DNA of 64,000 nt from Flavihumibacter petaseus NBRC 106054 (GTDB lineage Bacteria > Bacteroidota > Bacteroidia > Chitinophagales > Chitinophagaceae), in assembly GCF_000974785.1 (NCBI RefSeq), contig NZ_BBWV01000002.1, positions 992,001 to 1,056,000 on the forward strand, read 5' to 3'. The translations under genes were made by a program, and so were the position numbers. Positions within the stretch are counted from its first letter, which is position 1. Every line of letters starts with the position of its first letter. The notes under the pieces were generated by a model. That model worked only from the letters and a program-made list of their open reading frames with translations. It had not been told where the DNA came from and did no database searches. This document shows, one piece after another, positions 2,616 through 50,233 of this stretch.

Positions 2616-2902
2616 CATCCAGCCAGATAAAACTAGTAGACCAACTGTTGGCGAAGGACAGGTTTATGATCCTTTCCCGAAATCATCGCGGCGCCGTTGC
2701 CTACAAAATATTCCAGGGTCGAATGAACCCTGTTGGCTATGCTCGGACCAAAACTGCAACCGCAATCTGGCACCTGATGAAGGAAGACAAGAAGGGTAGG
2801 GTCACGTTGAACCGTACCGCTATCCGGCAAGTACATGGTAATTCAACTGTCAAAAAACTTTATAAAAATCAACTGCATGCAAAAGGTGATTCTCAGCTCT
2901 GA
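2612..2902 (+). CDS. Hypothetical phage protein
   Basis: The 96-residue protein has no domain I recognise. It is basic, with a winged-helix-like alternation of helices and strands between residues 1 and 75 that could bind DNA, but no diagnostic motif is visible. It starts in a 4-base ATGA overlap with the HNH gene and its 3' end overlaps the sliding-clamp start by 26 bases, so it is embedded in a translationally coupled operon. Confidence 0.6.
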   Translation: MTSSQIKLVDQLLAKDRFMILSRNHRGAVAYKIFQGRMNPVGYARTKTATAIWHLMKEDKKGRVTLNRTAIRQVHGNSTVKKLYKNQLHAKGDSQL

Positions 2903-3965
2903 CGCGCTGAAAGCTGGCCTGAAAAAACTTTCCCAGGCCATCAGTAAAAAATCCGTCATGCCCGTCCTCCAGAACGTACTGTGTAAAGTTTCTGAGGGTC
3001 ATATGGAGATGATCAGCAGCGATCTGGAGCTGACAATCAAGCTGGTTCTTGAAGTGGAAGCAAAGGAAAGTTTTCAGTTCCTGCTTCCCTTCGAATTCGT
3101 CAGTAAGATCGTGGGAATCCTTAAAGTTCAGCCGATAGCAATTGAGGTTGAAACCTCAAGGGTAGCGCTTAGAGCTGAGCACGATCTTTTTGAAATTGGG
3201 GGCTTCGAAGGTGCTGAGCTCTACCCGGCAGTGCCAGACATTCCAAAAAAGAACAGGACCATCCTGAATAATGAGTTGCTGTTTTGGTTGGGGCGTGCGA
3301 TGGATACTGTCTCCAGTGACGAGAATCGGCCAGCAATGATGAAGGCTTGCCTGGATATCAAAGCTGAGAGCCTTACGATTGCCAGCACCAACGCAACGAT
3401 GCTTTTCACAAAAGTGGCCGCCGTCGAGTCGGCAAACGTCGATCAACTGCTAATCACCCCTAAAGTTGCCAAAGTGTTGGAGGGATTTGCTGAGGCTGAG
3501 GTGTTCTGGCATAAAAAACAGATCGCATTTAAAAGCAGCCACATGACCGTTATCGCTACTCGACATGAAGATAAATTCCCAGATTACAAGGTTGTTATTC
3601 CAGACTTCAAGGCAAATCTCACTCTGGAAAGGTCGGTGTTAGTCGAAGCTCTGGAAAAGTCTTCTTTGAGCAGTAGCACGCTCACTACAGTTTTTCTCAC
3701 CCGCGGCAAAGAGACGCAGACGATCTACTTTGAAACCTTTGATCAAGATCTCGATCGCAAAATTTTGATAGATATCACGGGTGACTACACCGGTACGGTT
3801 GATCAAGTAGCAATCAACCCAAAAAGCATGTTGACACTTTTAAAGCAGGTAGACTTTGGTGAGATCTCCCTTCATATCGAAAAGCCTGCCTCGCCTGTGC
3901 TGATCTCCAGTACTGAGGATGCTGGTTATTTAAGTCTTCTTGTACCATACAAAATCAATGATTAA
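2877..3965 (+). CDS. dnaN: DNA polymerase III beta sliding clamp, phage-encoded
   Basis: The 362-residue product is a full-length beta clamp: it starts MQKVILSSDALKAGLKKLS, the classic first strand and helix, and has three repeated clamp domains of about 120 residues. The frame is open further upstream to an ATG at 2835, but the family always starts at the equivalent of the ATG at 2877. The clamp encircles DNA and tethers polymerase and repair proteins through short LF-containing peptides. The chromosome has its own dnaN, so this copy would give the phage a clamp of its own. It directly precedes the PRTRC cassette (9 bases to protein E), which ties that cassette to replication. The upstream sequence is A/T-rich and has no Shine-Dalgarno site. 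Confidence 0.93.
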   Translation: MQKVILSSDALKAGLKKLSQAISKKSVMPVLQNVLCKVSEGHMEMISSDLELTIKLVLEVEAKESFQFLLPFEFVSKIVGILKVQPIAIEVETSRVALRAEHDLFEIGGFEGAELYPAVPDIPKKNRTILNNELLFWLGRAMDTVSSDENRPAMMKACLDIKAESLTIASTNATMLFTKVAAVESANVDQLLITPKVAKVLEGFAEAEVFWHKKQIAFKSSHMTVIATRHEDKFPDYKVVIPDFKANLTLERSVLVEALEKSSLSSSTLTTVFLTRGKETQTIYFETFDQDLDRKILIDITGDYTGTVDQVAINPKSMLTLLKQVDFGEISLHIEKPASPVLISSTEDAGYLSLLVPYKIND

Positions 3966-3974
3966 AACTTTTAT

Positions 3975-4418
3975 ATGAACTTTTTTCAGTCACTTTTTGA
4001 AGCAGCTCCTGGCCTTGATCTTACCATACGGATGAAAGAAAAGGCCGGCATAATCACCATGACCGTTCTGCCGCACGTTGGCGCTAAGGATGGTAAGATC
4101 AAACCGGTCAATATCTCCGGTACCCCAGCTGATCTGGACGAAGGCTTCTTTGCAGCAATTACTCCGATGCTCGAAGCTGCCAAAGGCCTGACAGTATCGG
4201 AAGGCCCAGAAACCGCAAGCGATTCGGGTGATGATAACGGTACCGGGAAATCAGCACCAGCCAAAAAGCAGCCTGTTGAAAAGAAGTCAACTGCCAAGAA
4301 GCAGGCAATGAAGAAGGCGGCAAAGGCAGAGCCCAAGGACAGCGATACTGATTCGGAAGGTGATCAACCACCTACAGAGGAACTGAAACCAAAAGTTGAA
4401 ACCCCATCCCTTTTTTAA
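3975..4418 (+). CDS. PRTRC system protein E
   Basis: The first 75 residues match the PRTRC E family as seen in Bacteroidota: a short helix, a LTIRM strand, and the signature GTPADLDEGFFAAITPMLE around residues 48-67. Residues 80-140 are a Lys/Ala/Asp/Glu-rich, probably disordered tail (KK repeats resembling a nucleic-acid-binding linker). The protein ends TPSLF, close to a clamp-binding motif though lacking the first Gln. The PRTRC system (ParB-related, ThiF-related cassette) is usually found on plasmids and conjugative elements; its function is not established. The gene lies between the clamp and PRTRC C and shares the leader AAAACTTTTATATGAA with the gene at 39925. Confidence 0.85.
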   Translation: MNFFQSLFEAAPGLDLTIRMKEKAGIITMTVLPHVGAKDGKIKPVNISGTPADLDEGFFAAITPMLEAAKGLTVSEGPETASDSGDDNGTGKSAPAKKQPVEKKSTAKKQAMKKAAKAEPKDSDTDSEGDQPPTEELKPKVETPSLF

Positions 4419-4436
4419 CCCAACAATTCAATACCA

Positions 4437-4658
4437 ATGGCACTCGAGGTAACCAACCTGAAGCGCAGCTTCAAATTCAAGAAAGATGGCAAAATGATCA
4501 CCCTGGCTGATGCTAACCCGGCATTTACCCTGGAAGAAACGGTACAGTTTTACAGTACCCAATACCCGGAACTCACGACTGCCACCATTGATGGACCCAA
4601 GGTGGAATGCGATAACGCTGTTTATGAATTCAAAACAACCATAGGTACCAAAGGATGA
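4437..4658 (+). CDS. PRTRC system protein C, ubiquitin-like protein
   Basis: The 73-residue protein matches PRTRC C nearly end to end: R-x-F-x-F near residue 10, the EETVQFYSTQYPELTTA segment (33-49) and the family-invariant finish VYEFKTTIGTKG. It is a predicted beta-grasp, ubiquitin-like (Prok_Ub-type) protein, and the open C-terminal Gly is what an E1-like enzyme would adenylate. No processing peptidase would be needed because translation stops directly after this Gly. The E2-like and E1-like partners lie 1.2 and 1.9 kb downstream. Family match is strong; the conjugation role is from published comparative genomics of these families as I recall it, and the targets are unknown. Confidence 0.9.
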   Translation: MALEVTNLKRSFKFKKDGKMITLADANPAFTLEETVQFYSTQYPELTTATIDGPKVECDNAVYEFKTTIGTKG

Positions 4659-4680
4659 AAAATTCCAAGGAAACCAAACC

Positions 4681-5859
4681 ATGCCGGCGAAAATTAAACA
4701 TAAGAGATCTGCACCGCGAACTGGCGCATCTGTTTCAGGAAGAAAAACGAAACGGACGGCTAATGGCGGGAGAAGAGAAGCAGGATCGCCGGCAGCTGCC
4801 GTCATCGCAGATTCCTTTCATTCCCTGATCCTGAAGCCGGTGCCGGGACCGGTCGTATTCTTCAATGGCCAGCACAGGGATGCTGATGGCGAAGATGCCA
4901 TGTTGATCTACCAGGCTGTTTTTGATGCGTACCGGCAGATGAAGTTCATCCGGAATGCAGAAAGGATTCGGATCAATCCAGCAGCTATAGGATTGAGCAT
5001 TGAAAACAGCATTCATTTCTGCCTTACGGAAATAAAGAAGATGCTGCCGTCCCGGTGGGAGGTAAACGTGGAGAAGGAGGGTGATAAATACCTGGTAGTA
5101 ATCTACTTCACCTGTGAATTAAACGACAGCTGGAACATATTTGAAGCGGGGCCGATTATCAGGATCCTGGAACAGGAAAATCCAAAGTTGCTCGGATACT
5201 TTCTTCAGTTTCTGTCTGCGATGGTCCGCGTTGCAGCGATCGGCAACTGGCAGACAGACTTTCAGGATGATTTATTCAACCTGCGTGATAGGGTTGAAGA
5301 AATGTGGGCAGATCCGGAGGAGTACGAAGACCTGGATGAACTGACACTTGCACTCAACGAGTATAATGCCGGCGCTCCAGATCACTTTGGCAGGAAGATT
5401 CTGAACATAAAAAAGGTAAATCTAAAGAAGCTGCAGCAACAGGCCCGTAGGTTCAGAAGCTGCCCGGAAGTGGCCAATGTGATCTGCCAGGGCTGTGAAC
5501 TCCTGATGGAAGGAAGATCCCTTGCCGAATACCGGAATATGGACAGGATGGAAAAGGAAGGCTATGACGGGTATTACCTGCAACTGGATCTGCAGTACTG
5601 TGTGGTGTGGAAGTACGCTGATCCTGTTTTTGACGACTACGAGGAATATCTCAATTCAATGGCCAATGAAGGATTGGAAGAGCCGGAAATAAGATTGGTC
5701 ATTGATCAGAACCTAAAACTGGAAGATATCCTTCACTGTGACGATCGAAAGTCGTGGCCTATGCGCTTGGCAAATTTCATGGACAGAGCAAAAGAGTTAC
5801 TGGTAATATTCAAATCAAAGTATGAACCAACGGACGGACGCGCTGATGAAGACTTTTAA
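4681..5859 (+). CDS. Large protein in the PRTRC F position
   Basis: The 392-residue acidic protein lies between PRTRC C and PRTRC B, the place of protein F in the cassette. I cannot confirm the F family from sequence alone, so this is a call by position. The first 45 residues are basic and probably disordered (KIKHKRS, KTKRT). The rest is mostly helical with a D/E-rich middle (residues 195-240, containing WADPEEYEDLDEL). No catalytic motif was recognised. It overlaps protein B by 38 bases if B starts at 5822, or 14 bases if it starts at 5846, so the two are translationally coupled. It could be a scaffold or substrate adaptor for the conjugation module; this is speculation. Confidence 0.7.
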   Translation: MPAKIKHKRSAPRTGASVSGRKTKRTANGGRREAGSPAAAVIADSFHSLILKPVPGPVVFFNGQHRDADGEDAMLIYQAVFDAYRQMKFIRNAERIRINPAAIGLSIENSIHFCLTEIKKMLPSRWEVNVEKEGDKYLVVIYFTCELNDSWNIFEAGPIIRILEQENPKLLGYFLQFLSAMVRVAAIGNWQTDFQDDLFNLRDRVEEMWADPEEYEDLDELTLALNEYNAGAPDHFGRKILNIKKVNLKKLQQQARRFRSCPEVANVICQGCELLMEGRSLAEYRNMDRMEKEGYDGYYLQLDLQYCVVWKYADPVFDDYEEYLNSMANEGLEEPEIRLVIDQNLKLEDILHCDDRKSWPMRLANFMDRAKELLVIFKSKYEPTDGRADEDF

Positions 5860-6541
5860 CCCGCAACTGCTGATTGCGGTATATGCCCCTACCGGCAGCT
5901 GGATGGATGCCTACCTGGAAAGCCACGAGGTGGACACAAAGGGTAGGATTCTGGAAGGCAGGCCGCTGAAGCAGGAAACTATTGACGGGTTAGTGGATGT
6001 GTTCTACCAGGAACGGCAGCAAAGGAGCGAAATATCGGGCCTTCTGCCGCATAATATGCTCCATTTCCAACAACTGAGTGGTGGCGGCCACGAACTTATC
6101 TGGTACCGGCCAGCCGAGAAAAGGCAGCTGTTCTTTGCGGAGAAGCTCCACATACCTTCCGGCGAGGCCTGGGTGCCACCGATGATCTACCACGTTCATA
6201 AAAGGCAAATGGAAGTATTTGCCTGGGAAGATGATGGGTCACGGCCAACCGAAAAAACACAGCTGCTGCGTGCGCCTTTCCACAATGTTTCCGGGAGCGG
6301 TGATGTATGCCTGGGCAGTGCAAAAGCTAAGAAGCCCGAAACAAATACGATCGCGGCACTGCTAAAATACTGGGAAGATATGTTCTGGCTGAGCGAATTC
6401 ACGCACCTGGCCGGCTCTGAAAACCCAACCAAAACGAATGTCAACCTGATCTGGAGACAGCTCATTGGCTCAGAAACCAAATGGTCTGACCTGGGTGAAC
6501 TGTTACCAATTAAAAACACACTGGAGGATCTGCTGCCATGA
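5822..6541 (+). CDS. PRTRC system protein B, E2-like
   Basis: The 239-residue protein matches PRTRC B: LPHNMLHF (75-82), IWY, RQLFFAEKLHIPSG (101-114), VPPMIY (118-123), then APFHNV (151-156) followed by GSGDVCLG (158-165). C163 is the only cysteine in the protein and sits where E2-like (Prok-E2_D-type) proteins carry the thioester-forming Cys. The expected role is to accept PRTRC C from the ThiF protein and pass it to a target. The start at 5822 overlaps the upstream gene by 38 bases; an alternative ATG at 5846 (residue 9, MKTFNPQLL) gives a smaller overlap. Its stop overlaps the ThiF start by 4 bases, supporting one transcriptional and translational unit. Confidence 0.88.
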   Translation: MNQRTDALMKTFNPQLLIAVYAPTGSWMDAYLESHEVDTKGRILEGRPLKQETIDGLVDVFYQERQQRSEISGLLPHNMLHFQQLSGGGHELIWYRPAEKRQLFFAEKLHIPSGEAWVPPMIYHVHKRQMEVFAWEDDGSRPTEKTQLLRAPFHNVSGSGDVCLGSAKAKKPETNTIAALLKYWEDMFWLSEFTHLAGSENPTKTNVNLIWRQLIGSETKWSDLGELLPIKNTLEDLLP

Positions 6542-7338
6542 CCGTACACTATACGCACCCCTACCTGCTCAATCCGCAGCACAAGGTCACCATTAACCTG
6601 GTAGGTCTTGGCGGTACCGGATCCCAAATGCTGACGGCGCTGGCCAGGATCAACGAAACACTGCTGGCGATCGGCCACCCGGGCATTCATGTCAGGAGCT
6701 TTGATAGTGACACGGTTTCGGCTTCCAATATAGGCAGGCAGCTGTTTTCCCCTGCAGACCTCGGCATGAATAAGGCTGTAGTACTTACAACCCGGATCAA
6801 CCGGTTCTTCGGCTATGAATGGGAAGGACATCCGGAAAATTTTTCCGGGCAATATAGAGCCAATATCACCATCAGCTGCATTGATTCTGCTTTAGGAAGG
6901 GTAATGCTTGCGGAGACAATTACCGGCAAACAGGGACCATGTGAGCCACTTGACCGGCCACATTATTGGTTGGATATCGGCAACCTTCAGAAGACCGGGC
7001 AGGTCGTGCTTGGAACTGTTACTTCCATCAAGCAACCGAAAAGCGACCAGCCCACCGTTAATCAATTACCAAATGTGATTCAGCGGTTTCCCGATATCAA
7101 GAAGATCAAGGAAGCAGATCAGGGCCCCAGCTGCTCAGTTGCCCAGGCGATCAGCCGGCAGGATCTCTTCATAAACAGCACGCTGGCACAATTCGGCGCC
7201 AACCTGATCTGGAAGTTATTCCGGGAGGGTATGCTGACTTACCATGGCTGCTACATCAACCTGGAAAGCTTCCTGGTTACTCCCATGAGGATTGATTCGT
7301 TCAATTATTCCATAAAAAAATCAAAATCCAAAAAATGA
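6538..7338 (+). CDS. PRTRC system ThiF family protein, E1-like
   Basis: The 266-residue protein is an E1/ThiF/MoeB-type adenylating enzyme. The nucleotide-binding loop is G23-L-G25-G26-T-G28, followed by FDSD (55-58), the SNIGRQ motif with the conserved Arg (R67) and ISCID (112-116). The GPSCS motif places a candidate catalytic Cys at C199. It should activate the C-terminal Gly of PRTRC C with ATP and load it through a thioester. The match to the PRTRC ThiF family is strong across the whole length, including the final NSTLAQFGANLIW segment. It overlaps genes on both sides (ATGA at each end). ParB, protein A and protein D of the full cassette are not in this window and may lie to the left. Confidence 0.92.
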   Translation: MTVHYTHPYLLNPQHKVTINLVGLGGTGSQMLTALARINETLLAIGHPGIHVRSFDSDTVSASNIGRQLFSPADLGMNKAVVLTTRINRFFGYEWEGHPENFSGQYRANITISCIDSALGRVMLAETITGKQGPCEPLDRPHYWLDIGNLQKTGQVVLGTVTSIKQPKSDQPTVNQLPNVIQRFPDIKKIKEADQGPSCSVAQAISRQDLFINSTLAQFGANLIWKLFREGMLTYHGCYINLESFLVTPMRIDSFNYSIKKSKSKK

Positions 7339-7733
7339 AGTTGAAGTATTTCACAGAACAGACGCTACCGAAGGTTAGGGGCGCTGGTGGTACAAGGCTC
7401 GCCAGGATCAACCTGAGCACGAAAGGAGCCATCCGGATAAACGAGGCAGCTTGTCAGCTTATCGGTATTAAGGATGGCGATAAGATCTCAATTGCCCAGG
7501 ATCAGGAAGCCAAAGAAAACTGGTACATCTTTAAGGATCCCAGTCACGGATACCAGGTCCGTCTGATGAGTGACAAGAAAACCTGCGGGTTCAACCATGC
7601 AACGTTCATCGGCGCATTTAAAAAGGCTATGAACCTGAAAGATGACATCGGGGTTTCATATCTAATTGCTGGCCAGCCCACCGTGATGAGTGGTGACAAA
7701 ACCAAATTCTGGGGAATTCTGATACCATCATAA
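7335..7733 (+). CDS. Hypothetical phage protein
   Basis: The 132-residue protein is coupled to the ThiF gene by a 4-base overlap. Residues 20-60 (RINLSTKGAIRINEAACQLIGI, then KDGDKISI) have the look of an AbrB/SpoVT-like swapped beta-hairpin, with GIKDGDKI as the turn, but this is a weak structural guess. A second beta-rich segment follows at 60-130. No catalytic residues are recognised. It may be a small accessory of the replication operon. Confidence 0.6.
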   Translation: MKLKYFTEQTLPKVRGAGGTRLARINLSTKGAIRINEAACQLIGIKDGDKISIAQDQEAKENWYIFKDPSHGYQVRLMSDKKTCGFNHATFIGAFKKAMNLKDDIGVSYLIAGQPTVMSGDKTKFWGILIPS

Positions 7734-7742
7734 TCGGTAGTT

Positions 7743-7955
7743 ATGGCACACCAATCAGTTCAACAGAAGTACGAAACGCTCGTGGACAAAGTCCGCCGGA
7801 TGCGCAAACACCAGATCAATTGGTTCAACCTTCGGGTAAGCGACGATCTCCGGGCGGCAAAGAAACTGGAGCGTGAAGTTGATGCCCTATTATCCCAGGA
7901 AATTCCAATCCAGAAACCCAACCAAACGGATCTCTTTAATGGCAACAGAAGCTAG
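7743..7955 (+). CDS. Small coiled-coil protein with internal clamp-binding-like motif
   Basis: The 70-residue protein is a predicted helical hairpin (residues 5-50, rich in K/R/E/L) followed by a flexible tail holding QTDLF (residues 61-65), a near-perfect match to the sliding-clamp consensus QL(S/D)LF. With the phage clamp 4 kb upstream in the same gene string, it is a candidate clamp-binding small protein. Its 3' end overlaps the next gene's preferred start by 17 bases. The family is unknown to me. Confidence 0.65.
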   Translation: MAHQSVQQKYETLVDKVRRMRKHQINWFNLRVSDDLRAAKKLEREVDALLSQEIPIQKPNQTDLFNGNRS

Positions 7956-8700
7956 GCTGATCAGGAACGCAATATTGACCAGCGACAGGGTCAACAAACT
8001 TTCGTTCCCTGCAGAGGTATTTTTCAGAAGGCTAATGCATGTAGCTGACGACTACGGTAGATACGACGCGAGGCCGTCGGTCCTGAGAGTCGCACTGTAT
8101 CCCCTTAAAATCGAAAAGGTGTCAGAATCGGACGTAGTCAAGTGGATGACTGAGTGTGTCAACGCGGGGCTCGTAAGGCAGTACACGGTCGATGAGAAAA
8201 ATTATCTCCTGATAGAGCGATTTGGTCAAAGAATGCGTACCAAAAAAAGCCGGTATCCTGATCCTCATGGAGTTATGGAGGAATCGGCGGCGGATGGCGG
8301 CGAAGTGCAGCAACATGCGGCAACTGGCAGCAACAAATTACAAAATGTCGGAAGAGAAGTAGAAGGGAAGAGAAGTAGAAGAGAAGAGAAAGTGGCGGAT
8401 AAACCGCCCATGCTCAAAGGAAAAAGTTTAGAAGACAGGGAACAGGAATTCTATGTTGAGCTGGCCAGCTATGTACAGACCTACGGAAAGGAAATGATCA
8501 GGAAGTTTTATGACTACTGGCGCGAGCCCAATAAATCGCGATCGAAAATGCGATGGGAGCAGGAACGTACCTGGGAGCTAAAGCTTCGCCTGATCAAATG
8601 GGAGGAACGGGACGCAAGTTTCAACCGGGGGAAATCAGAAAGACCAGTGGACGGGCTGACGATCAACGAAAAAATTAAGGCTGCCAGCAAGGCGAACTGA
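7939..8700 (+). CDS. Phage replication initiator-like / replisome-organiser-like protein
   Basis: The frame is open from 7873 but the natural start is the ATG at 7939 (MATEARLIRNAILTSDRV), which gives 253 residues and a much smaller overlap with the upstream gene. Residues 15-95 look like the winged-helix N-terminal domain of phage replication proteins that precede DnaB: FFRRLMHVADDYGRYDARP, LYPLK and a conserved ERFGQR strand. The middle is a charged linker, and the C-terminal part (WREPNKSRSKMRWEQERTWELKLRL) is like DnaD-type or helicase-loader tails. It probably binds the phage origin and loads the DnaB encoded 2 bases further on. Confidence 0.7.
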   Translation: MATEARLIRNAILTSDRVNKLSFPAEVFFRRLMHVADDYGRYDARPSVLRVALYPLKIEKVSESDVVKWMTECVNAGLVRQYTVDEKNYLLIERFGQRMRTKKSRYPDPHGVMEESAADGGEVQQHAATGSNKLQNVGREVEGKRSRREEKVADKPPMLKGKSLEDREQEFYVELASYVQTYGKEMIRKFYDYWREPNKSRSKMRWEQERTWELKLRLIKWEERDASFNRGKSERPVDGLTINEKIKAASKAN

Positions 8701-8702
8701 TT

Positions 8703-10214
8703 ATGGATCTGACGAACATAAATAAAAGCAGGAAGGACAGGAGACCCGCCGGATCGGTTGATCTCACCACGATGGTTTACGGGAAAGTTCCACCACAAGC
8801 GAAGGACCTGGAAGAAGCTATCCTTGGTGCGATCATGCTGGAAAGCCGCGCATTTGATACGGTTTCCGAAATCCTGCAGCCCGATCGATTTTATGTGAAT
8901 GCGCATGAGCTGATCTTCCGGGCAATGCAGAACCTGGCTCAGAAGAGCGTGCCGATCGACATCATGACGGTTACTGAGCAGCTGAGAAAGCAAGAGCAGC
9001 TTGAAATGGTTGGCGGGCCCTATTACGTGACGAAGCTGACAAATACGGTTGTTTCCTCTGCAAACCTGGAGGCGCACTGCCGGATCGTCCTGGAAATGTA
9101 CATGAAGCGGGAAGTGATCCGACTGGGTGGCCAGTTTGTGGGTGATGGTTACGATGACGCTGTGGATGTGTTTGACCTGATTGATCGTGTGGAGACCGAT
9201 ATCATGGCTCTGAGTACGTCCACTGTAAAAACTGACTTCCGGCCAATTTCTTCCGGATTGGTAAAGGTGGTTCACCAGATGGAGGATATCCGCCACCGGC
9301 CAGAGGCTCTTACAGGTGTGACGTCCGGATTTCCGGAGGTGGATCGGTGCACCAATGGGTGGCAGAAAACGGATTTGATTATCCTGGCTGCCCGGCCATC
9401 GGTAGGGAAAACCGCATTCGCATTGAACCTGGCCAGAAACGCTGCCATGGCACCGGATCCTGTGGGAGTGGGATTGTTCTCGCTCGAAATGAGTGAATCA
9501 CAGCTGGTGCAGCGGATCCTTTCAGCGGAAAGCGGAATCTTTTTGGAACGGATAAAGAACGGACGGTTGGACGATCACCATATGGCGCAGATCTATCACC
9601 GCGGTGTCGAGCGGCTTCACGAAGCGCCGATCTATATCGATGATTCAGCAGCCCTGAACATTTTCGAACTGAGGGCCAAAGCCAGGAGGATGAAAAACAA
9701 GTTCGATGTCGGTCTGATCATTATCGATTACCTGCAGCTGATGTCCGGCGACACCAACAAAAGTGACAACCGGGAAAGAGAGATCGCCAAAATATCCCGG
9801 GAATTGAAGCGCCTGGCGAAGGATCTGGAGGTCCCTCTGATTGCCCTCAGCCAGCTGAGTCGGGCGATTGAAAGTCGGGCCAGCCGTGAGCCTCAGTTGT
9901 CGGATTTACGGGAATCAGGAGCGATCGAACAGGATGCTGACCTGGTTGGATTTCTCTACCGGCCATCGGACAAGGAGATCATGGACGACAGGGAACTGGA
10001 AAACAAGGGAATGGTGAAGATAGCAAAGCACAGGAATGGTTCTCTGATGGATTTCGTGGGTGAGTTTCACGGCAATATCCAGAAGTGGACGAACCTGAAG
10101 GAAATGAGCAGATTTTCTTCCGGCCAGCATTCAAACATGAAACCTATATCTAGCCCATACGGCAACAGCCAGGGAAGTTTTTACGAAAAAGATGACGATG
10201 AGATATCGTTTTAA
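8703..10214 (+). CDS. dnaB: Replicative DNA helicase DnaB
   Basis: The 503-residue product is a full DnaB: an N-terminal helical domain (about residues 28-170, PPQAKDLEEAILGA), a linker, and a RecA-type motor with Walker A RPSVGKT (231-237), Walker B IIIDYLQLM (339-347) and the QLSRAIESR arginine region near 385. It unwinds DNA at the phage fork as a hexamer. It directly follows the initiator-like gene (2-base gap) in the order usual for phage replication modules. The C-terminal 60 residues are polar and species-specific. About 150 non-coding bases follow, the first real gap in the early operon. Confidence 0.93.
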   Translation: MDLTNINKSRKDRRPAGSVDLTTMVYGKVPPQAKDLEEAILGAIMLESRAFDTVSEILQPDRFYVNAHELIFRAMQNLAQKSVPIDIMTVTEQLRKQEQLEMVGGPYYVTKLTNTVVSSANLEAHCRIVLEMYMKREVIRLGGQFVGDGYDDAVDVFDLIDRVETDIMALSTSTVKTDFRPISSGLVKVVHQMEDIRHRPEALTGVTSGFPEVDRCTNGWQKTDLIILAARPSVGKTAFALNLARNAAMAPDPVGVGLFSLEMSESQLVQRILSAESGIFLERIKNGRLDDHHMAQIYHRGVERLHEAPIYIDDSAALNIFELRAKARRMKNKFDVGLIIIDYLQLMSGDTNKSDNREREIAKISRELKRLAKDLEVPLIALSQLSRAIESRASREPQLSDLRESGAIEQDADLVGFLYRPSDKEIMDDRELENKGMVKIAKHRNGSLMDFVGEFHGNIQKWTNLKEMSRFSSGQHSNMKPISSPYGNSQGSFYEKDDDEISF

Positions 10215-15034: not shown

Positions 15035-15508
15035 ATGCAGAAAGTATCGGGCTTTTCTTCAAACGAATACCAGTTGATCGGGAAGCTTGTGGTAGAACGG
15101 GAACCCGCTTTTGCCGCCAACATCGTCAACTCCTTCCGGGTATCTCCAGCCAAAGAGAGAGACCTATCTAAAATCCCTCAGTTTTTCACATCGTACTGCC
15201 AGATGCGCGGAGTAGAGCAGGAGGCCCTGCTTGTTACCAGCGGCGACAGAACCAATAAACAGCTGATCCGGGTATTCGTGTCAGCCATCATGCGCTTGTA
15301 TTGCCCGGAGCTATCCCTGTTGGTCAAGTTCCAGATGAAGGTAAGGAGCGGCCTGGTACAGGGTATTCAGCGCACCATTAACCGGACGCTCAGTAACACC
15401 ACTGTCATGATCCGTCAGAACCTGATCCTGGAAACCGTATACGATGACTTCCGGGAAGATGTAGACGCAGCAGTTAACCATTTACTGGCATTAAATCCTG
15501 AGGTATGA
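15035..15508 (+). CDS. Hypothetical protein preceding terminase
   Basis: The 157-residue helical protein is the first gene of the late region and overlaps the small terminase start by 4 bases. No domain is recognised. It includes NKQLIRVFVSAIMRLYCPELS and a C-terminal acidic helix. The position suggests a role in switching to or starting packaging, perhaps as a regulator or packaging accessory. Confidence 0.6.
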   Translation: MQKVSGFSSNEYQLIGKLVVEREPAFAANIVNSFRVSPAKERDLSKIPQFFTSYCQMRGVEQEALLVTSGDRTNKQLIRVFVSAIMRLYCPELSLLVKFQMKVRSGLVQGIQRTINRTLSNTTVMIRQNLILETVYDDFREDVDAAVNHLLALNPEV

Positions 15509-16017
15509 AGACTGGACCAGCGAAAAAGCCCACGAAGAAACCGGTGAAGAAGGCAGCCAAGAAGAAGGCGCCGAAGAAGAAGCATGGGAGACCGGATCTA
15601 TACACTGAGGAGGTGGCCGCGAAAATCCTTCACCTGATCTCCACTACCGCGAAAGGCCTTTCCTCAATCTGCAAAAGCGATAAGTCACTCCCTTCTGACG
15701 AGACAGTGCGCAAATGGATCAATGAGGACCGCGAAGGTTTCCTTGGGAGGTACACGCGTGCGCGTGAGGAGCAGGCTGACTTACTGGCGGAGGAGATAGT
15801 GGGCATTTCCGATGAGGTTTCCAGGAAGAAAGCGCTCTCTCACGAGGCTGTGGCCGCGGCCAGACTGCGGATGGATGCCCGCAAATGGGTGGCGTCCAAA
15901 CTAAAGCCAAAAAAATACGGCGATAAAATCGACCATACTACTGACGGTGAATCACTTAACAAAGGATTCTTTGACTATTTAAAGCAGACATCGGGCAATG
16001 CCGGCAGCCAAGGTTAA
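15505..16017 (+). CDS. Terminase small subunit
   Basis: The 170-residue protein has a Lys-rich N-terminus (KK repeats, residues 5-28), then a Sf6-type small terminase: GRPDLYTEEVAAKILHLIS, an HTH with SLPSDETVRKWI, YTRAREEQADLLAEEIVGISDE and the diagnostic MDARKWVASKLKPKKYGDK. It recognises the phage packaging site and feeds DNA to the large subunit, whose start it overlaps by 20 bases. Confidence 0.88.
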   Translation: MKTGPAKKPTKKPVKKAAKKKAPKKKHGRPDLYTEEVAAKILHLISTTAKGLSSICKSDKSLPSDETVRKWINEDREGFLGRYTRAREEQADLLAEEIVGISDEVSRKKALSHEAVAAARLRMDARKWVASKLKPKKYGDKIDHTTDGESLNKGFFDYLKQTSGNAGSQG

Positions 16018-17584
16018 TGAATATGAGCAGCTGGCCATTGACCGGCTGAAGCGCTGGCGGAGCGACTGGGTTCTCTTTGCTGAAGAGGCTTTGGGCGTCA
16101 CCATGGACGATGAGCAGAAGGCTATCCTCCGGTCTGTTCAGGTCAACAAGATGACTTCCGTTGCTTCCGGTACCGCCAGGGGCAAAGACTTTACTGCGGC
16201 GGTCTGTGCGGTGTGTTTCCTGTACCTGACACCGGTATGGGATGTGAGGGGAGAGATGACCGAAAATACAAAGGTGGCCCTCACGGCTCCGACTGACCGG
16301 CAGGTAGGCAACATCATGGTTCCGGAGTTTACCCGTTTATTTTTACGCGCTAAACGCAACGGCATAGACTTGCCGGGAAGGCTCACGGGGTACGATATCC
16401 GTACGGATAACAAAGAATGGTTTCTGACCGGTTTTAAAGCCGATTCCAAGCGGCATGAAAGCTGGTCGGGCTTCCATGCCTCCAATACCATGTTCGTGGT
16501 AACGGAGGCCTCAGGTATTCCTGAGGACATATTCGCCGCGATTGAAGGTAACCTGCAGGGTAACTCCCGAATCCTGATCGTCTTCAATCCCAACGTTTCA
16601 ACCGGATATGCAGCGACCTCTCAGCGGTCACCCAGGTGGAAGACTTTCAGGCTTGACAGCCTCAATGCTCCCAACGTAGTGGAAAAGCGATCGATCATTC
16701 CCGGCCAGGTGGACTATGAGTGGGTAGCAGACAAGGTGGAAAACTGGTGCCATATGATTTCCCAGGATGATTTCTCCGTCACAGAAGGTGATTTCGAGTG
16801 GGAGGGTAACCTGTACCGGCCAAACGATCTTTTTCGGGTGAAGGTCCGCGGTATGTTCCCGAAAGTGGGATCAGACGTGCTGGTGCCTCAGCTGTGGATC
16901 GAGATGGCGAACGAACGATGGCTGGAATTCAAGAAAGACGGTCTGCCGGTTGAAAGGCCGCTGCGGCTGGGTGTCGATGTTGCCGGCATGGGACGGGACA
17001 GCAGCTGCTTCTGCCCACGATTCGGCGACCTGGTTGAACCATTCCGCCTGATCCATTCCGGAGGCGTGGCCAACCATATGGAGATCGTCGGCGTTACCAA
17101 AACAATCCTTGCCCAGCATACCGATTCTTTCCGAGGGGTTACCCCGCAGGCTTTCATAGACACCATCGGCGAAGGTGCTGGCGTATACAGCCGCCTGGTT
17201 GAGCTGGAGGTACCTCATGTGCACTCAGTGAAGGGCAGCAGCGCCGCCAAGATCGGCACAACGCCAATGAAGGATAAGACCGGCGTCCGGACCTTCCGAA
17301 ACTATCGTGCTTTCCTGTACTGGAAGGTCCGCGAGTGGCTGGATCCTGACAATGATTCAAAGGCGATGCTGCCGAAGGACGATTACCTGCTTCAGGAGCT
17401 GACCGAAACCAAATGGGAGATGCTCAGCGATGGATCCATCAAGATTGAGGAGAAAGAGGAGATCAAGAAGCGGATCGGAAGATCTCCCGATCGGAGCGAC
17501 TCCCTAGCCCAGACATTTCACAATTCGCCGGATGTGGAGGCAGCACCCGGCAAGAAGAAAAACCTTGCAAATTTTTTCAGATGA
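15998..17584 (+). CDS. Terminase large subunit
   Basis: The 528-residue protein has an ATPase domain with a Walker A-like SGTARGKD (57-64), Walker B FVVTEA (166-171), and an RNase H-like nuclease with acidic residues D327 (RLGVDVAGMGRD), D388 (AFIDTIGEG) and the late SPDRSDSLAQTF motif. It cuts concatemeric DNA and drives it into the procapsid. The unusual Walker A (ARGKD) occurs in related phage terminases. A methyltransferase gene follows directly with a 4-base overlap, before the portal. Confidence 0.92.
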   Translation: MPAAKVNEYEQLAIDRLKRWRSDWVLFAEEALGVTMDDEQKAILRSVQVNKMTSVASGTARGKDFTAAVCAVCFLYLTPVWDVRGEMTENTKVALTAPTDRQVGNIMVPEFTRLFLRAKRNGIDLPGRLTGYDIRTDNKEWFLTGFKADSKRHESWSGFHASNTMFVVTEASGIPEDIFAAIEGNLQGNSRILIVFNPNVSTGYAATSQRSPRWKTFRLDSLNAPNVVEKRSIIPGQVDYEWVADKVENWCHMISQDDFSVTEGDFEWEGNLYRPNDLFRVKVRGMFPKVGSDVLVPQLWIEMANERWLEFKKDGLPVERPLRLGVDVAGMGRDSSCFCPRFGDLVEPFRLIHSGGVANHMEIVGVTKTILAQHTDSFRGVTPQAFIDTIGEGAGVYSRLVELEVPHVHSVKGSSAAKIGTTPMKDKTGVRTFRNYRAFLYWKVREWLDPDNDSKAMLPKDDYLLQELTETKWEMLSDGSIKIEEKEEIKKRIGRSPDRSDSLAQTFHNSPDVEAAPGKKKNLANFFR

Positions 17585-20854: not shown

Positions 20855-20918
20855 TGTAATTCAGCACATTCTTTCACAGAAATAGCCACTCCCCGCAGTG
20901 GCTATTTTTATTATTGCC
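20855..20918 (+). promoter_or_regulatory. Late promoter module before portal (dyad, 30 nt, TAnnATTGCC)
   Basis: TGTAATT at 20855-20861, 10 bases, TTTCACA at 20872-20878, then exactly 30 bases and TATTATTGCC at 20909-20918, 4 bases before the portal ATG. The same layout with identical spacing occurs before 35767 and 42786. The TAnnATTG box resembles the Bacteroidota -7 element (TAnnTTTG) but no -33 TTTG is visible at the usual 17-23 bases upstream, suggesting activation by a factor bound to the dyad centred near -55. Confidence 0.7.
20882..20911 (+). terminator. Rho-independent terminator nested in late promoter
   Basis: A 9-base stem (ATAGCCACT with AGTGGCTAT) around a 6-base loop is followed by TTTTTATT. 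It ends transcription from the sugar cassette. It lies inside the 30-base spacer of the late promoter module, and its T-tract overlaps the TA of the -7-like box. Confidence 0.85.
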
Positions 20919-20922
20919 CTGT

Positions 20923-22344
20923 ATGACACAGGAGCAACTTGACGAACTCGTTTCCGATCCGGAAAAATTAAAGGCACAATTGGATGCCGAGAAGCCGGTC
21001 AAGAATTTGGCCGATATCCTGAAGCAATACGAGCCATCTACCCACGACATCACTGACCAGACCAAGCGCCCGGACAAATTGGTTACAACTGATGCTGGTA
21101 CCAGCACAGTTACGGTTGCCAGGCTGACGCTAAATCTGCAAAAGAAGATCGCATTCTATGCCGCGGCATTCCTGTGTGCCAACCCGGTAAAGGTGGATGC
21201 TGCAGCAGCTGACGAAACCCAGCAGGGCCTGCTCGATGTCATTCGAAAAACGCTTGAGGATAACAAGGTCGACTACAAGAACATGCAGTTGGCTGAGATG
21301 ATGATGGCGGAAACAGAAGTTGCCGAGCTGTGGTATACAGAGCCTCTGCCGCCGGACAGTACAGTTTGGGCTGGCACTGTCAATGAAAAAAAAGCAGAGT
21401 TCAGGCTTCGCATGAAGGTCTTGGCCAATTCACTTGGTGATGCATTATACCCGGTTTTTAATGAATTCGGTGACATGATCGCCTTCGGTCGTGGATATTT
21501 CGTCGGTGCCGAGGGTTCAAAGTCCGAGATGTTGGAGCTCTATACAGCTACAAAGATCTATATCTATCAAAAAACAACGAATGGGTGGATTGAACTGAAA
21601 TCAGCTGCAAACATCGTTCAGAAAATCCCGGTGATCTATTACAGGCAGCCGAAACCAGAGTGGTCAGATGTCCAGACGCTGATAGACCGCCTGGAAATAT
21701 CAATTTCCAACCACGGGGACACGAACGACTACTTCGGCTCACCCATGGTCAAAGTAAAGGGGGAGGTTAAAGGGTTCGCGAAGAAGGGCGAGAGTGGCAA
21801 GGTGATTGAAATGTCCGAATCAGCTGATGCCGACTACCTCACCTGGGATCAATCGCCAGATTCGATCAAGCTGGAACAGACCAATCTGAGATCCTTCATC
21901 TACGACAATACCGACACTCCTGATATTTCATTCACTCAGATGAGCAAACTGGGAACATTCTCAGGTTTTGCCATCAAACTGCTGTTCATGTCTGCCCACC
22001 TGAAAGCAGCAAAAAAGGAACAGACGTTCGGCGAAGGCGTTCAGAGGAGACTAAACTTTCTCAAAGCCGCCATGGCCAAAATCAATGTTACGTTGGAAAA
22101 GGGGCAGGTTCTTTCTGTGAAGCCTAAGTTCAAATATTTCCTTCCAGAGGATACCGAGACGGACGTAGATGTATTGGTTCGCGCCAAGGAAGGCGGCATT
22201 CTTTCTCAGGAATCCGCAGTTGCTGCAAATCCTCTGGTATCCAATCCAGAGGAGGAACTGGAGCGTCTCAAAAAAGAACGTGACGCTGCTGCAGGCCTGG
22301 ATGAAGCAATCAATGATGATGTTACTGATCCGGATGAAGAATAA
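20923..22344 (+). CDS. Phage portal protein, SPP1 gp6-like
   Basis: A 473-residue portal protein of the SPP1 gp6 (DUF935-unrelated) type: early LTLNLQKKIAFYAAAFLCANPV, the KIPVIYYRQPKPEWSDVQTLIDRLEISISN segment with the wing/stem transition, and FSGFAIKLLFMSAHLKAAKK at the stem. The C-terminal 40 residues are acidic. It forms the dodecameric vertex through which DNA enters. A TTG at 20914 is in frame upstream, but the ATG at 20923 is preferred because it follows the promoter box by 4 bases and gives MTQEQLDEL. Confidence 0.88.
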   Translation: MTQEQLDELVSDPEKLKAQLDAEKPVKNLADILKQYEPSTHDITDQTKRPDKLVTTDAGTSTVTVARLTLNLQKKIAFYAAAFLCANPVKVDAAAADETQQGLLDVIRKTLEDNKVDYKNMQLAEMMMAETEVAELWYTEPLPPDSTVWAGTVNEKKAEFRLRMKVLANSLGDALYPVFNEFGDMIAFGRGYFVGAEGSKSEMLELYTATKIYIYQKTTNGWIELKSAANIVQKIPVIYYRQPKPEWSDVQTLIDRLEISISNHGDTNDYFGSPMVKVKGEVKGFAKKGESGKVIEMSESADADYLTWDQSPDSIKLEQTNLRSFIYDNTDTPDISFTQMSKLGTFSGFAIKLLFMSAHLKAAKKEQTFGEGVQRRLNFLKAAMAKINVTLEKGQVLSVKPKFKYFLPEDTETDVDVLVRAKEGGILSQESAVAANPLVSNPEEELERLKKERDAAAGLDEAINDDVTDPDEE

Positions 22345-22352
22345 TTACCGGT

Positions 22353-23393
22353 ATGCCTACCCCCAAACGTAAGTTCAGCCTCAAGGATATCATCCGGAAA
22401 TCCCAAAACCAGAATATCCGCAATGCCCAGCGCGTTCTGGATGAGATCATGGCGCTGATGGATAAAGGTGCCTCGAAAGCTGCGAACCTGGTAAACAGGC
22501 GTCAGCTGATCAACAACCGGTTTCTACCCAAGGATGTTCGGGACGCCATTGACAGGATTGTTACCACCTTTCACGCTGACGCAAGCCAGGTGATCATTAA
22601 CGGCATCACCAGGGCTCGGAAGCTGGCAGATGAAAAGACCAACGTCATTTCCGAGGGATACATGGGAGGGGGGCAGAAACCGCCAACTAAGGCAACGGAG
22701 ATCTCATCTTCTGGTGGCCGCAGACGCCGGCCGCCATCCGCACCGAAAAATCCGATCGCATCAAACTTTGGCAAGCACTTCAACCCAAGGAGCCTTTCTC
22801 CTCGAGTTTGGAAGCTTGCGAACTCATACAAATCCACCATCAACAAAACCCTGGTCGATGGCATGAAGAAGGGCATTGGCGCCAAGCAGCTGGCCAAGGA
22901 CCTTACGCGCAACCTGCGCAACCCCAGCGGATCCCTTTCACCTGGTACCGGCGTGTACCGGTCTCCGAAAAAGAATGCAGAACGATTGGCCCGCACTGAA
23001 ACAAATCTTGCATATCAATTCCAAGACTTTGAACGCTGGCAAACCCAATGGTTCGTTACTGCGATCGAAATAAGGCTGAGTGCACAGCATCCGAAATACG
23101 ATATCTGTGATCCCCTGGTTGGAGAGTATCCTAAAGATTTCCTATTTCCTGGATGGCACCCCAACTGTTTATGCATCGCGGTGCCAGTGCTCGCTGACGA
23201 AGAAACCCGCGACGCCATGCTGGACTACAATCTTGGACTACGCAAGTATCCGCCGGAAGTAAAATACCGGACGATCGTTCCCGGTAGAATGATTCTCTGG
23301 ATGAAAAACAACAGTGAGCGCATTAAAAAGTGGAAGAATCAGCCCTATTTCATCAAGTACAACCAGAAACACCTCGCTGATTTGATGGAATAA
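22353..23393 (+). CDS. Minor head protein, MuF/SPP1 gp7-like
   Basis: The 346-residue protein carries the MuF-type C-terminal motif with a Cys/His cluster: ETNLAYQFQDFERW, PKYDICDPLVGEYP, then GWHPNCLC (about residues 269-276). The N-terminal half is helical with an internal basic stretch (GGRRRRPPSAPKNP, about 123-136). It is expected to attach to the portal inside the head and may be injected with DNA. It lies 8 bases after the portal, the usual position. Confidence 0.85.
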   Translation: MPTPKRKFSLKDIIRKSQNQNIRNAQRVLDEIMALMDKGASKAANLVNRRQLINNRFLPKDVRDAIDRIVTTFHADASQVIINGITRARKLADEKTNVISEGYMGGGQKPPTKATEISSSGGRRRRPPSAPKNPIASNFGKHFNPRSLSPRVWKLANSYKSTINKTLVDGMKKGIGAKQLAKDLTRNLRNPSGSLSPGTGVYRSPKKNAERLARTETNLAYQFQDFERWQTQWFVTAIEIRLSAQHPKYDICDPLVGEYPKDFLFPGWHPNCLCIAVPVLADEETRDAMLDYNLGLRKYPPEVKYRTIVPGRMILWMKNNSERIKKWKNQPYFIKYNQKHLADLME

Positions 23394-23394
23394 A

Positions 23395-23418
23395 TGTAAC
23401 AAAGCAGGGTCTTTCACA
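23395..23418 (+). promoter_or_regulatory. Late dyad element, copy before scaffold
   Basis: TGTAACA (23395-23401), 10 bases, TTTCACA (23412-23418), in the 84-base gap before the scaffold gene. The spacing matches the other copies, but there is no TAnnATTGCC at +30; a TATTTATTCCC sequence lies just before the ATG at 23478 instead. The promoter may therefore differ or be weaker. Confidence 0.6.
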
Positions 23419-23477
23419 AACACTCAGAATGCGCAAGGGAAGAAGAAACAATTTCACGCAAACAATTATTTATTCCC

Positions 23478-24116
23478 ATGCACAAGGCGAAAATTCTGGC
23501 ACAACTGAAGGCGAAACACCCAGGGGTGTCAGCGGCGGTTTTGGAACTGGTGGCCGACAAGCTCGCGCAAACAGTGACCGAAGAAGCCAAGATCGATGAA
23601 GCCATTACGGCACTCGACAACATGCCTATTTCGATCAAGGACTTTGCCGATACACTTCAAAAAGAAGGGGATCGCAGAGTAACTGAGGCACAGAAAAAGT
23701 TCAAAGAGAAAAAAGCAGAACCGAAAGAGGAGGATACCCCTCCTGGTGACAACAGCGATTCTGCACTTGCAAAGCAACTGAAGGCTCTTACTGATAAGCT
23801 TGATCGCCTGGAAGGCGAGAGGCTGCAGTCTGATTATGGTCAAAGGCTTGCCAGGAAACTCACCGACGCAAAAATACCAGCGCAACTGGCCAAGGGGCGC
23901 ACGGTGACCAGCGACGATGAACTGGAAACTGTGTTCAAAGAAATCGAAACCGATTACGCGGATATGAAGCAGACTATGGCCAATCAAGGATTCGGTGAAG
24001 TGCCGAAGCCGGGAGAAGGTCAGAAGACTGAGCCCACGAAAACGGCAGTTGAAGCCGGCATTAAGGATTGGGCAGCCAGGAACCAACCTGCAAAGGAAGC
24101 TCCGGTAGCCAAGTAA
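23478..24116 (+). CDS. Capsid scaffold-like protein
   Basis: The 212-residue acidic/basic protein is almost wholly helical and low in hydrophobics, with a coiled-coil region (residues 85-125, LAKQLKALTDKLDRLEGERLQ) and Pro/Glu-rich linkers. This composition and the position between the MuF and decoration/major capsid genes match a scaffolding protein. No protease domain is visible in it or nearby, so procapsid maturation protease is either absent or host-supplied. Confidence 0.7.
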   Translation: MHKAKILAQLKAKHPGVSAAVLELVADKLAQTVTEEAKIDEAITALDNMPISIKDFADTLQKEGDRRVTEAQKKFKEKKAEPKEEDTPPGDNSDSALAKQLKALTDKLDRLEGERLQSDYGQRLARKLTDAKIPAQLAKGRTVTSDDELETVFKEIETDYADMKQTMANQGFGEVPKPGEGQKTEPTKTAVEAGIKDWAARNQPAKEAPVAK

Positions 24117-24146
24117 TTGAATCAATCAATTCAAATTTTTTCAACC

Positions 24147-24731
24147 ATGGGTTTACATCCTAAGAAAGAATCCGCCCAGAGCGGTAAAGTGATTTTCCAG
24201 AAAGTTCTGGAAACAGCCCGTGGTGGTTTCACACTGGACCCGTCGGGTCTCAGCGAAGGAAATGTAATCCCTGCCGGTACACCCATTTCTTTTGATGAAA
24301 CCACCCGGAAAGCCCGGATCCTGAAAACCGCCAAGGTTTATGAAACCGCTGGCGGATCAGCCACTACCTACAAGGTAGAAAAGGGCCATCTGCTGAAAGT
24401 GGGTGAATATGCTGGTGCAACTGTAGGCGGTCCTGCTTACGCGATCACAGCGATCGACACCAGCAACTCGGCCTACGATACAATCACGGTTGGTACCACC
24501 ATCGGAGCTGCTTCAGCTGGAGCTGCTTTGTTCCAATCAAGCGCAACCGGTGCGTCATCCGCTGCGCTGATGGTGACCGCTAAAGGTCTGTCCTGGGACG
24601 ATGTGGAATATGCAGAAGATGCCAGCGTGTCAGTAGTGCTGCGCGGCACCCTGTATGCCCGTCGTGCGCCGGCAGTTCCTTCCAGCGTGGTTACCGGCCT
24701 TCCTCTCATCATTTTCTCAAACAGCTATTAA
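24147..24731 (+). CDS. Head decoration-like protein
   Basis: The true start is the ATG at 24147 (MGLHPKKESAQ); an earlier TTG at 24117 is in frame. The 194-residue product is Ala/Gly/Ser/Thr-rich and beta-rich (TAKVYETAGGSATTYKV, GYAGATVGG and similar), the composition of phage head decoration or head-fibre proteins. It lies directly before the major capsid gene, where decoration proteins usually are. An AT-rich leader (AAATTTTTTCAACC) precedes the ATG. Confidence 0.65.
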   Translation: MGLHPKKESAQSGKVIFQKVLETARGGFTLDPSGLSEGNVIPAGTPISFDETTRKARILKTAKVYETAGGSATTYKVEKGHLLKVGEYAGATVGGPAYAITAIDTSNSAYDTITVGTTIGAASAGAALFQSSATGASSAALMVTAKGLSWDDVEYAEDASVSVVLRGTLYARRAPAVPSSVVTGLPLIIFSNSY

Positions 24732-24753
24732 ACCACAGCGGAGGAAATAAACT

Positions 24754-50115: not shown

Positions 50116-50233
50116 AATTCCAAGAGTGATGGATTATCGTTACCTATTTGTTACTAAAATGATGATTTTGCCCTGTAATACACTGGTATTGGGCATTAAT
50201 TCATAATAAGAATGTCCCAGCGGGATCACAGAA

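Follow-up and report, generated by a model that had tools for sequence, protein, structure and literature searches.

The PRTRC cassette and its family assignment

The subject of this analysis is a set of five coupled genes of the PRTRC type, encoding a ubiquitin-like protein (Ubl) together with putative E1- and E2-like enzymes, which lies in a prophage directly behind the gene of a DnaN sliding clamp. It is found in a 64,000-nucleotide stretch of the Flavihumibacter petaseus NBRC 106054 genome, in the following called the window (C21:992001-1056000 in a genome of 5.69 Mb). Along the + strand, the genes are PRTRC E (3975-4418), PRTRC C, a 73-aa Ubl ending at GTKG (4437-4658), a mostly helical protein at the F position (4681-5859), the E2-like PRTRC B (5822-6541) and the E1-like PRTRC ThiF (6538-7338). 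Neighbouring genes overlap or are 9-22 bp apart, and the coupled string described in the initial annotation was recovered with its genes, order and coordinates.

The family assignment was checked with hidden Markov models (HMMs), as had been proposed with that annotation. C was identified by alignment and by its matches to Prok_Ub (PF14454, 1.8e-24, 85.8 bits, cut-off 25) and to the NCBIfam model PRTRC_C (TIGR03738, 68.2 bits, cut-off 45.95), ThiF by PRTRC_ThiF (TIGR03736, 252.5 bits, cut-off 144.75), and E by PRTRC_E (TIGR03741, 38.9 bits, cut-off 37.95) and Pfam (PF19556, 4.4e-11, 43.3 bits, cut-off 26). The PRTRC models thus accept C, E and ThiF, whereas B passes only with Prok-E2_D (PF14460, 7.4e-33, 114.1 bits, cut-off 25) and, at 117 bits, stays below the PRTRC_B cut-off (TIGR03737, 131.45). 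Overall, NCBIfam and Pfam support for E, C, B and ThiF bears out the PRTRC identity of the cassette.

In the case of the F-position protein, no family was found at an E-value of 1 or below in Pfam, NCBIfam and PHROGs, and there was no match to TIGR03742. Its structural model is confident (AF2 predicted local distance difference test score, pLDDT, 87.9) and has no match in the PDB at E-values up to 0.001. It is helical and at the right position for F, with a weak hhalign probability of 4.6% to phage F; homologues are present in 121 of 162 loci. Solved structures included no convincing relative of C, B, ThiF or E. Regarding the remaining PRTRC components, protein A (a JAB protease) and protein D had no match in the genome, where the search controls were silent too, although the same A model does find A in another locus (L011). 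PRTRC_parB gave a single genome match, below cut-off and distant from the prophage.

Comparative sample

Scanning with C gave 111 confirmed stretches in IMG/VR, 80 of which were kept for analysis, and 120 in GTDB genomes, again with 80 kept. Counts refer to 160 of 162 loci, the window included: one locus lacked a C match and another (L016) is the same prophage as the window. Some of the 160 represent the same element present in two collections. In 148 of them ThiF and 4.5 kb downstream are covered, leaving room to see a JAB gene. Plasmid records matched the window ThiF at an E-value of 1e-5 or below in 377 of 72,556 cases, from which 18 (17 distinct, as pSEA1 appears twice) were chosen for genus variety and not randomly, with flanks of 6 kb in 10 records and 14 kb in 8. 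Their gene calls were taken from the annotation and the ends of C were read by hand; in L272 and L274 neither E nor C is annotated, so that counts of these proteins refer to 15 plasmids. The ThiF tree holds 98 of 150 rows, and the trees are quick ones with long branches.

Catalytic residues and the end of the Ubl

The residues named in the initial annotation are all in place. C ends in Gly73. The only Cys of B is C163, a position at which all 155 aligned B proteins have Cys, and ThiF carries GLGGTG, SNIGRQ and GPSCS with C199, a Cys kept in 149 of 150 aligned sequences with one gap. Additionally, His195 of B is kept in 153 of 155. For operon type 6d, Iyer et al. 2006 (PMC1779556) describe an E2 whose Cys is likewise followed by a conserved His. 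The motif GTKG was present in 9 of 9 aligned C sequences, terminal in eight and followed by an extension in the ninth.

The end of C goes with the presence or absence of JAB. Among the 148 full loci, C stops exactly at G-x-K-G in 110 of 110 without JAB, one of them reading GTKA, and extends past this motif in 35 of 38 with JAB, by more than 5 residues in 30 of them; the extensions vary in sequence. Plasmids follow a similar trend: C ends in Gly on all nine that have no annotated A, and runs on in 4 of the 6 with A. The pattern fits a role of JAB as maturation protease and of the Gly as the reactive end. Because A was also not found in 110 of the 148 full loci, it is probably not essential to PRTRC. 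Five loci (L083, L087, L172, L258 and L269) have JAB and no extension on C, and are exceptions to the rule. We also considered the pairing of JAB with extended C as a series of repeated independent events; clean as the pattern is, the tree gives only 1-4 independent pairs, and this idea was dropped.

These observations bear on whether the cassette might belong to a sulfur-carrier or cofactor pathway, with thiocarboxylate chemistry like that of ThiS and ThiF in place of protein conjugation. ThiF does fall within the ThiF superfamily, and genes of the PAPS-reductase family lie near 4 of the 18 plasmid records (L259, L261, L262 and L272). Yet an E2-like partner is present in 157 of 162 loci with its Cys and His conserved as above, the relation between JAB and the end of C suits a processed Ubl, and the window cassette proteins matched no sulfur-transfer family in Pfam or NCBIfam. 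We therefore regard a sulfur pathway as very improbable.

Linkage with the sliding clamp

The phage DnaN gene (2877-3965, + strand; its open reading frame opens at 2835 and homologues start at 2877) ends 9 bp before E, which confirms that the cassette directly follows a phage-encoded clamp. This DnaN is divergent. It was assigned by PF00712 (6.7e-18), PF02768 (4.9e-7) and phrog_947 (1e-33), scoring above the Pfam cut-offs for the N- and C-terminal domains, below that for the central one, and 132.8 bits against the 137.65 required by TIGR00663. The host has a separate DnaN on contig C22.

The survey for DnaN beside PRTRC that the initial annotation had suggested showed the same neighbourhood in further phages and on proteobacterial plasmids, without the linked loci forming a single ThiF clade. 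Of the 160 loci, 26 have DnaN no more than 6.5 kb from C: upstream of C with E in between in 21, between C and F in two (L024/L098), and 4.9-6.5 kb downstream in three. Repeatedly, DnaN immediately precedes E, and the two genes overlap or are separated by a small gap. The 26 rows comprise 22 distinct clamps at 90% identity, which are 19-45% identical to that of the window. JAB is absent from all 26: they make up 19 of the 48 viral and 7 of the 71 genomic loci in the JAB-free group of 119, and the 41 loci with JAB include none. Seven of 16 DnaN-linked IMG/VR records carry a terminase or portal according to two PHROG models, the others being fragments or unmatched.

In the case of the plasmids, 3 of the 17 distinct ones have DnaN close to PRTRC. 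An Aeromonas plasmid shows the order ParB-DnaN-E-C-(small gene)-F-B-ThiF, a Xanthomonas plasmid reads DnaN-ParB-E with JAB present, and in a Pseudomonas putida plasmid DnaN lies 3.8 kb after ThiF. With hmmscan, the Pseudomonas DnaN scored 226 bits and that of Aeromonas 125, at the cut-off of 137.65.

Mapping DnaN onto the ThiF tree required 9 changes with undecided rows left out, compared to 20.8 in shuffles, and 11 if these rows are taken as lacking DnaN, 8 of them forced by supported branches. A single ThiF clade of all 23 linked rows, plasmids in, was rejected with an approximately unbiased p-value (p-AU) of 1.3e-65, and one of 20 linked rows (of 83), plasmids out, was rejected as well (6 changes, p-AU 5e-5). 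As a side observation, a gene of the phrog_1423 'reverse transcriptase' family is found just upstream of DnaN in two PRTRC phage contigs (L015:5779-6942, 4e-120; L025:5754-7193, 6e-112).

The initial annotation had also suggested that the Ubl may be attached to the clamp itself. To look at candidate acceptor sites, clamp lysines were compared in an alignment of 20 PRTRC-linked clamps, 9 unlinked phage clamps and the host DnaN. None combined near-invariance in the linked clamps with rarity in the unlinked; the best positions had frequencies of 0.75 linked vs 0.33 unlinked, and 0.60 vs 0.11. The proposal gained no support, since no lysine is near-invariant and specific to linked clamps, and as judged from these alignments the sliding clamp is an unsupported candidate as Ubl substrate.

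A clamp-binding-like peptide on the tail of E

The structural model of E consists of an ordered N-terminal domain (about residues 1-74) and a low-confidence tail that ends in ETPSLF. A fold search with the N-terminal domain gave weak dsRBD-like matches only (best E-value 0.013). The tail end is reminiscent of the peptides by which proteins bind the bacterial beta clamp, with consensus QL[S/D]LF, the first Gln being mostly absent in E. After redundancy removal, which left 81 of 156 E proteins, the motif [SDTNG][LMI][FY] was present in 70 of 81 tails, with 10.4 expected (standard deviation 2.6) from shuffled tails. The reversed motif occurred 13 times vs 10.6 expected, and the motif carrying Gln or Glu at its -2 position 27 times vs 0.9. 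A location of the motif at the very end of E seemed to track DnaN and looked striking in the locus list; independent tree pairs gave 0.5 vs 0.5, and this candidate was rejected.

Similar peptides are present in Bacteroidota polymerases. DnaE of the host and five Bacteroidota genomes (6 of 6) carries NTLFG, NSLFG or VSLFG, 40-odd residues after GAFD in the four genomes where this was measured, a position that we take to correspond to the QADMF site of E. coli DnaE. QADMF is named as a clamp-binding site in PMC11139829. Regarding DinB, 10 loci were entered and 6 remained after filtering. QISLF, QTHLF, QTNLF or QLTLF is present in four of these and QLSLEF in a fifth; the last has no such peptide.

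The tail peptide belongs to the E copies of Bacteroidota and of Burkholderiaceae-type phages, in most of which it is conserved, and not to all PRTRC. Of the 15 plasmid E proteins, just 4 have the strict motif (8 have looser hydrophobic ends). The Gln favoured by clamps stands at its place in only 13 of the 70 motif-bearing E proteins, and a -DLF- peptide is also conserved in the folded ThiF (44 of 49). As the latter lies in a folded protein, conservation alone does not prove docking.

The carrier prophage and its neighbouring genes

The cassette is carried by a prophage of 57.7 kb in the bacterial chromosome, inserted at a tRNA-Lys gene (C21:984511-1042231). A tyrosine integrase follows the tRNA-Lys, left of the window, and the right attachment site (GTCCCAGCGGGATCACAG, 50214-50231, + strand) repeats the 3' end of the tRNA-Lys over 18 bp; this repeat together with the tRNA-Lys and integrase sets the limits of the prophage. 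On the + strand, PHROGs identified the terminase small (15505-16017) and large (15998-17584) subunits, the portal (20914-22344), head proteins (22353-25848) and a tape measure (28705-33627). With terminase, portal, capsid, tape measure, integrase and attachment repeats, the element is a tailed-phage prophage. Within the head region, the best PHROG of the head-morphogenesis protein at 22353-23393 is labelled as Bxa ADP-ribosyl transferase (8.7e-47, residues 196-343), perhaps by label only.

Beyond the cassette, a replication initiation protein (7942-8700, phrog_5810, 2.1e-16) is followed by a DnaB-like replicative helicase (8703-10214), named after its tblastn match, the DnaB gene annotated in L011, both proteins being encoded on the + strand. 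Thus, PRTRC is placed with the clamp gene on one side and the replication initiator and DnaB on the other. Two further + strand genes encode clamp-binding-like ends: a 91-aa protein ending in EQTSLF (1944-2219) and a 70-aa protein with NQTDLF near its C-terminus (7743-7955). Further upstream, a frame at 49-1941, opening upstream, fuses a PD-(D/E)XK nuclease region (PF12705) to an FtsK/HerA-type translocase (PF01580, PF01935) and has a 64% homologue in L009.

The end of ThiF is overlapped by a gene for a 132-aa protein without family (7335-7733, + strand), with homologues in 9 of 162 loci, counting the window and its IMG/VR copy. Family-less relatives of 127-135 aa travel with the cassette in some phages and lie between E and C in L013 and L018, and after ThiF in L015 and L021. 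The protein is possibly an optional cassette member.

This genomic setting is relevant to the question of whether the cassette could be a defence or counter-defence module that puts the Ubl onto virion or host defence proteins, like Bil and CBASS, its site in the replication module being incidental. To our knowledge, the bacterial Ubl systems of known role are antiphage, and two of the plasmid copies examined have genes annotated as defence in their vicinity. ThiF also weakly matches E1-E2 models of PADLOC (best 3.2e-5) and the NCBIfam 6A-MBL cap2_3 model (1.2e-4). These matches, however, span the nucleotide-binding part only and are far below the NCBIfam cut-off (20.7 vs 320), while no other cassette protein had a PADLOC match better than 0.01. 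The location between clamp and replication initiator and the clamp-like peptide on E likewise speak against defence, which we judge to be distinctly unlikely.

The initial annotation considered PRTRC in a tailed phage to be new. The carrier is indeed a tailed prophage, but it is not unique, as many IMG/VR contigs and Burkholderia phage BgVeeders33 (OK665841) carry PRTRC. For the latter, whose record gives sewage as the sample and Burkholderia gladioli as the host, the proteins A, B, C, E and F each exceed their NCBIfam cut-off, and ThiF is present. In the phage collection, ThiF was matched by 3 of 50,697 records and C by 2. Among 149 genomes of the host's order, 5 were above the ThiF cut-off, including that of the window. 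The four other loci lie outside the 160-locus set: three run from E to ThiF with no DnaN within 15-16 kb, and one starts inside F at a contig end.

Proposed role of the cassette

As best explanation, we tentatively propose, with somewhat less than even confidence, that this is a clamp-docked PRTRC Ubl-conjugation cassette, housed in a temperate tailed phage within its replication module and serving replication of the mobile element. In such a mechanism, ThiF as E1 would adenylate the C-terminal Gly of C and take C onto C199, from where it would be handed to C163 of B as E2. As C is synthesized with GTKG as its natural end, no JAB protease would be required. E would act as an adaptor: the -SLF peptide on its flexible tail would fit into the peptide-binding pocket of a clamp, which would be the phage-encoded DnaN in this prophage and the host DnaN in other cases. 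E would thereby bring the E1/E2/Ubl machinery to the replication fork to modify a protein there, and F may be a substrate- or E2-binding part. The likely effect would be that the element's replisome competes with that of the host or is protected from it.

Several observations weigh against this proposal, starting with the limits of the tail peptide described above. In the stretch covered, 134 of the 160 loci have no DnaN, and the tree shows no association of DnaN with motifs that sit at the extreme C-terminus of E. Clustering of replication genes is general in phages and plasmids. The Aeromonas plasmid has E (27.5 bits) and C (19.9) below the PRTRC cut-offs, and its DnaN is without the usual MP end of the pocket, where the window DnaN has VP. 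Finally, the clamp-side scan, which returned the 7 query clamps (all with PRTRC) and 14 remote ones (19-26% identity, one with PRTRC) and no new close clamp, is no test of the linkage.

Many of these points would be expected if the adjacency of DnaN were a mere co-location of modules, the E peptide docking F, B or ThiF and PRTRC having a partition-like role in element maintenance unrelated to the clamp. That the strict motif is missing from most plasmid E proteins agrees with this, as do the SSB, helicase and ParB genes that also adjoin plasmid PRTRC. Co-location does not readily account for a DnaN that touches E or sits inside the cassette in separate lineages, nor for the resemblance of the E motif to the polymerases' own peptides. 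We consider it unlikely on balance, while granting it an appreciable chance.

A bolder form of the clamp-docked proposal sees in PRTRC a bacterial equivalent of PCNA modification, in which an E-docked E1-E2-Ubl set tags the clamp, or a clamp-bound replisome protein, for fork control by phages, plasmids and conjugative elements, the DnaN-bearing phages being self-contained. This extension appears rather doubtful.

We know of no settled function of PRTRC, a widespread orphan of plasmids, phage contigs and Bacteroidota chromosomes. The titles and abstract openings of the PRTRC literature contained no link to the sliding clamp, nor did titles on sliding clamps and Ubl contain one between PRTRC and the clamp, in searches that most subscription papers and preprints lie outside. 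With the recurrent DnaN linkage and the clamp-like E peptide, the function of PRTRC can be reduced to a question of binding and adducts. If the proposal is right, bacteria and phages would own a Ubl system at the replication clamp, a role familiar from eukaryotes.

Comparison with known systems

PRTRC of plasmids (NCBIfam TIGR03734-TIGR03742) shares with the window the E, C, B and ThiF families in the order E-C-F-B-(A)-ThiF, the Ubl with a conserved terminal Gly, the E2 with a downstream His and a helical protein. The window differs in that A (JAB) and D were not found in it, in having no ParB above cut-off and an F-position protein without a TIGR03742 match, and in its tailed-prophage location with its own DnaN beside E. 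By its components, operon type 6d of Iyer et al. 2006 (PMC1779556) is PRTRC. BgVeeders33 is likewise a tailed phage with E, C, F, B and ThiF; unlike the window it has A and a 62-aa extension of C after GTKG, and it lacks a DnaN in the examined 23 kb of its 33 kb.

Bacterial clamp-binding proteins such as DnaE, DinB, delta and transposases use a QL[S/D]LF motif, according to PMC11139829 and PMC4549789. The window E resembles them in its short peptide ending in [S/D/T]-[L/M]-F on a flexible tail or C-terminus, and differs in that the first Gln of E proteins is mostly replaced. In eukaryotes, PCNA carries ubiquitin and SUMO modifications. Unlike there, no clamp lysine stands out in the window system; what the two would have in common, if the clamp-docked proposal is right, is the action of Ubl enzymes at a sliding clamp.

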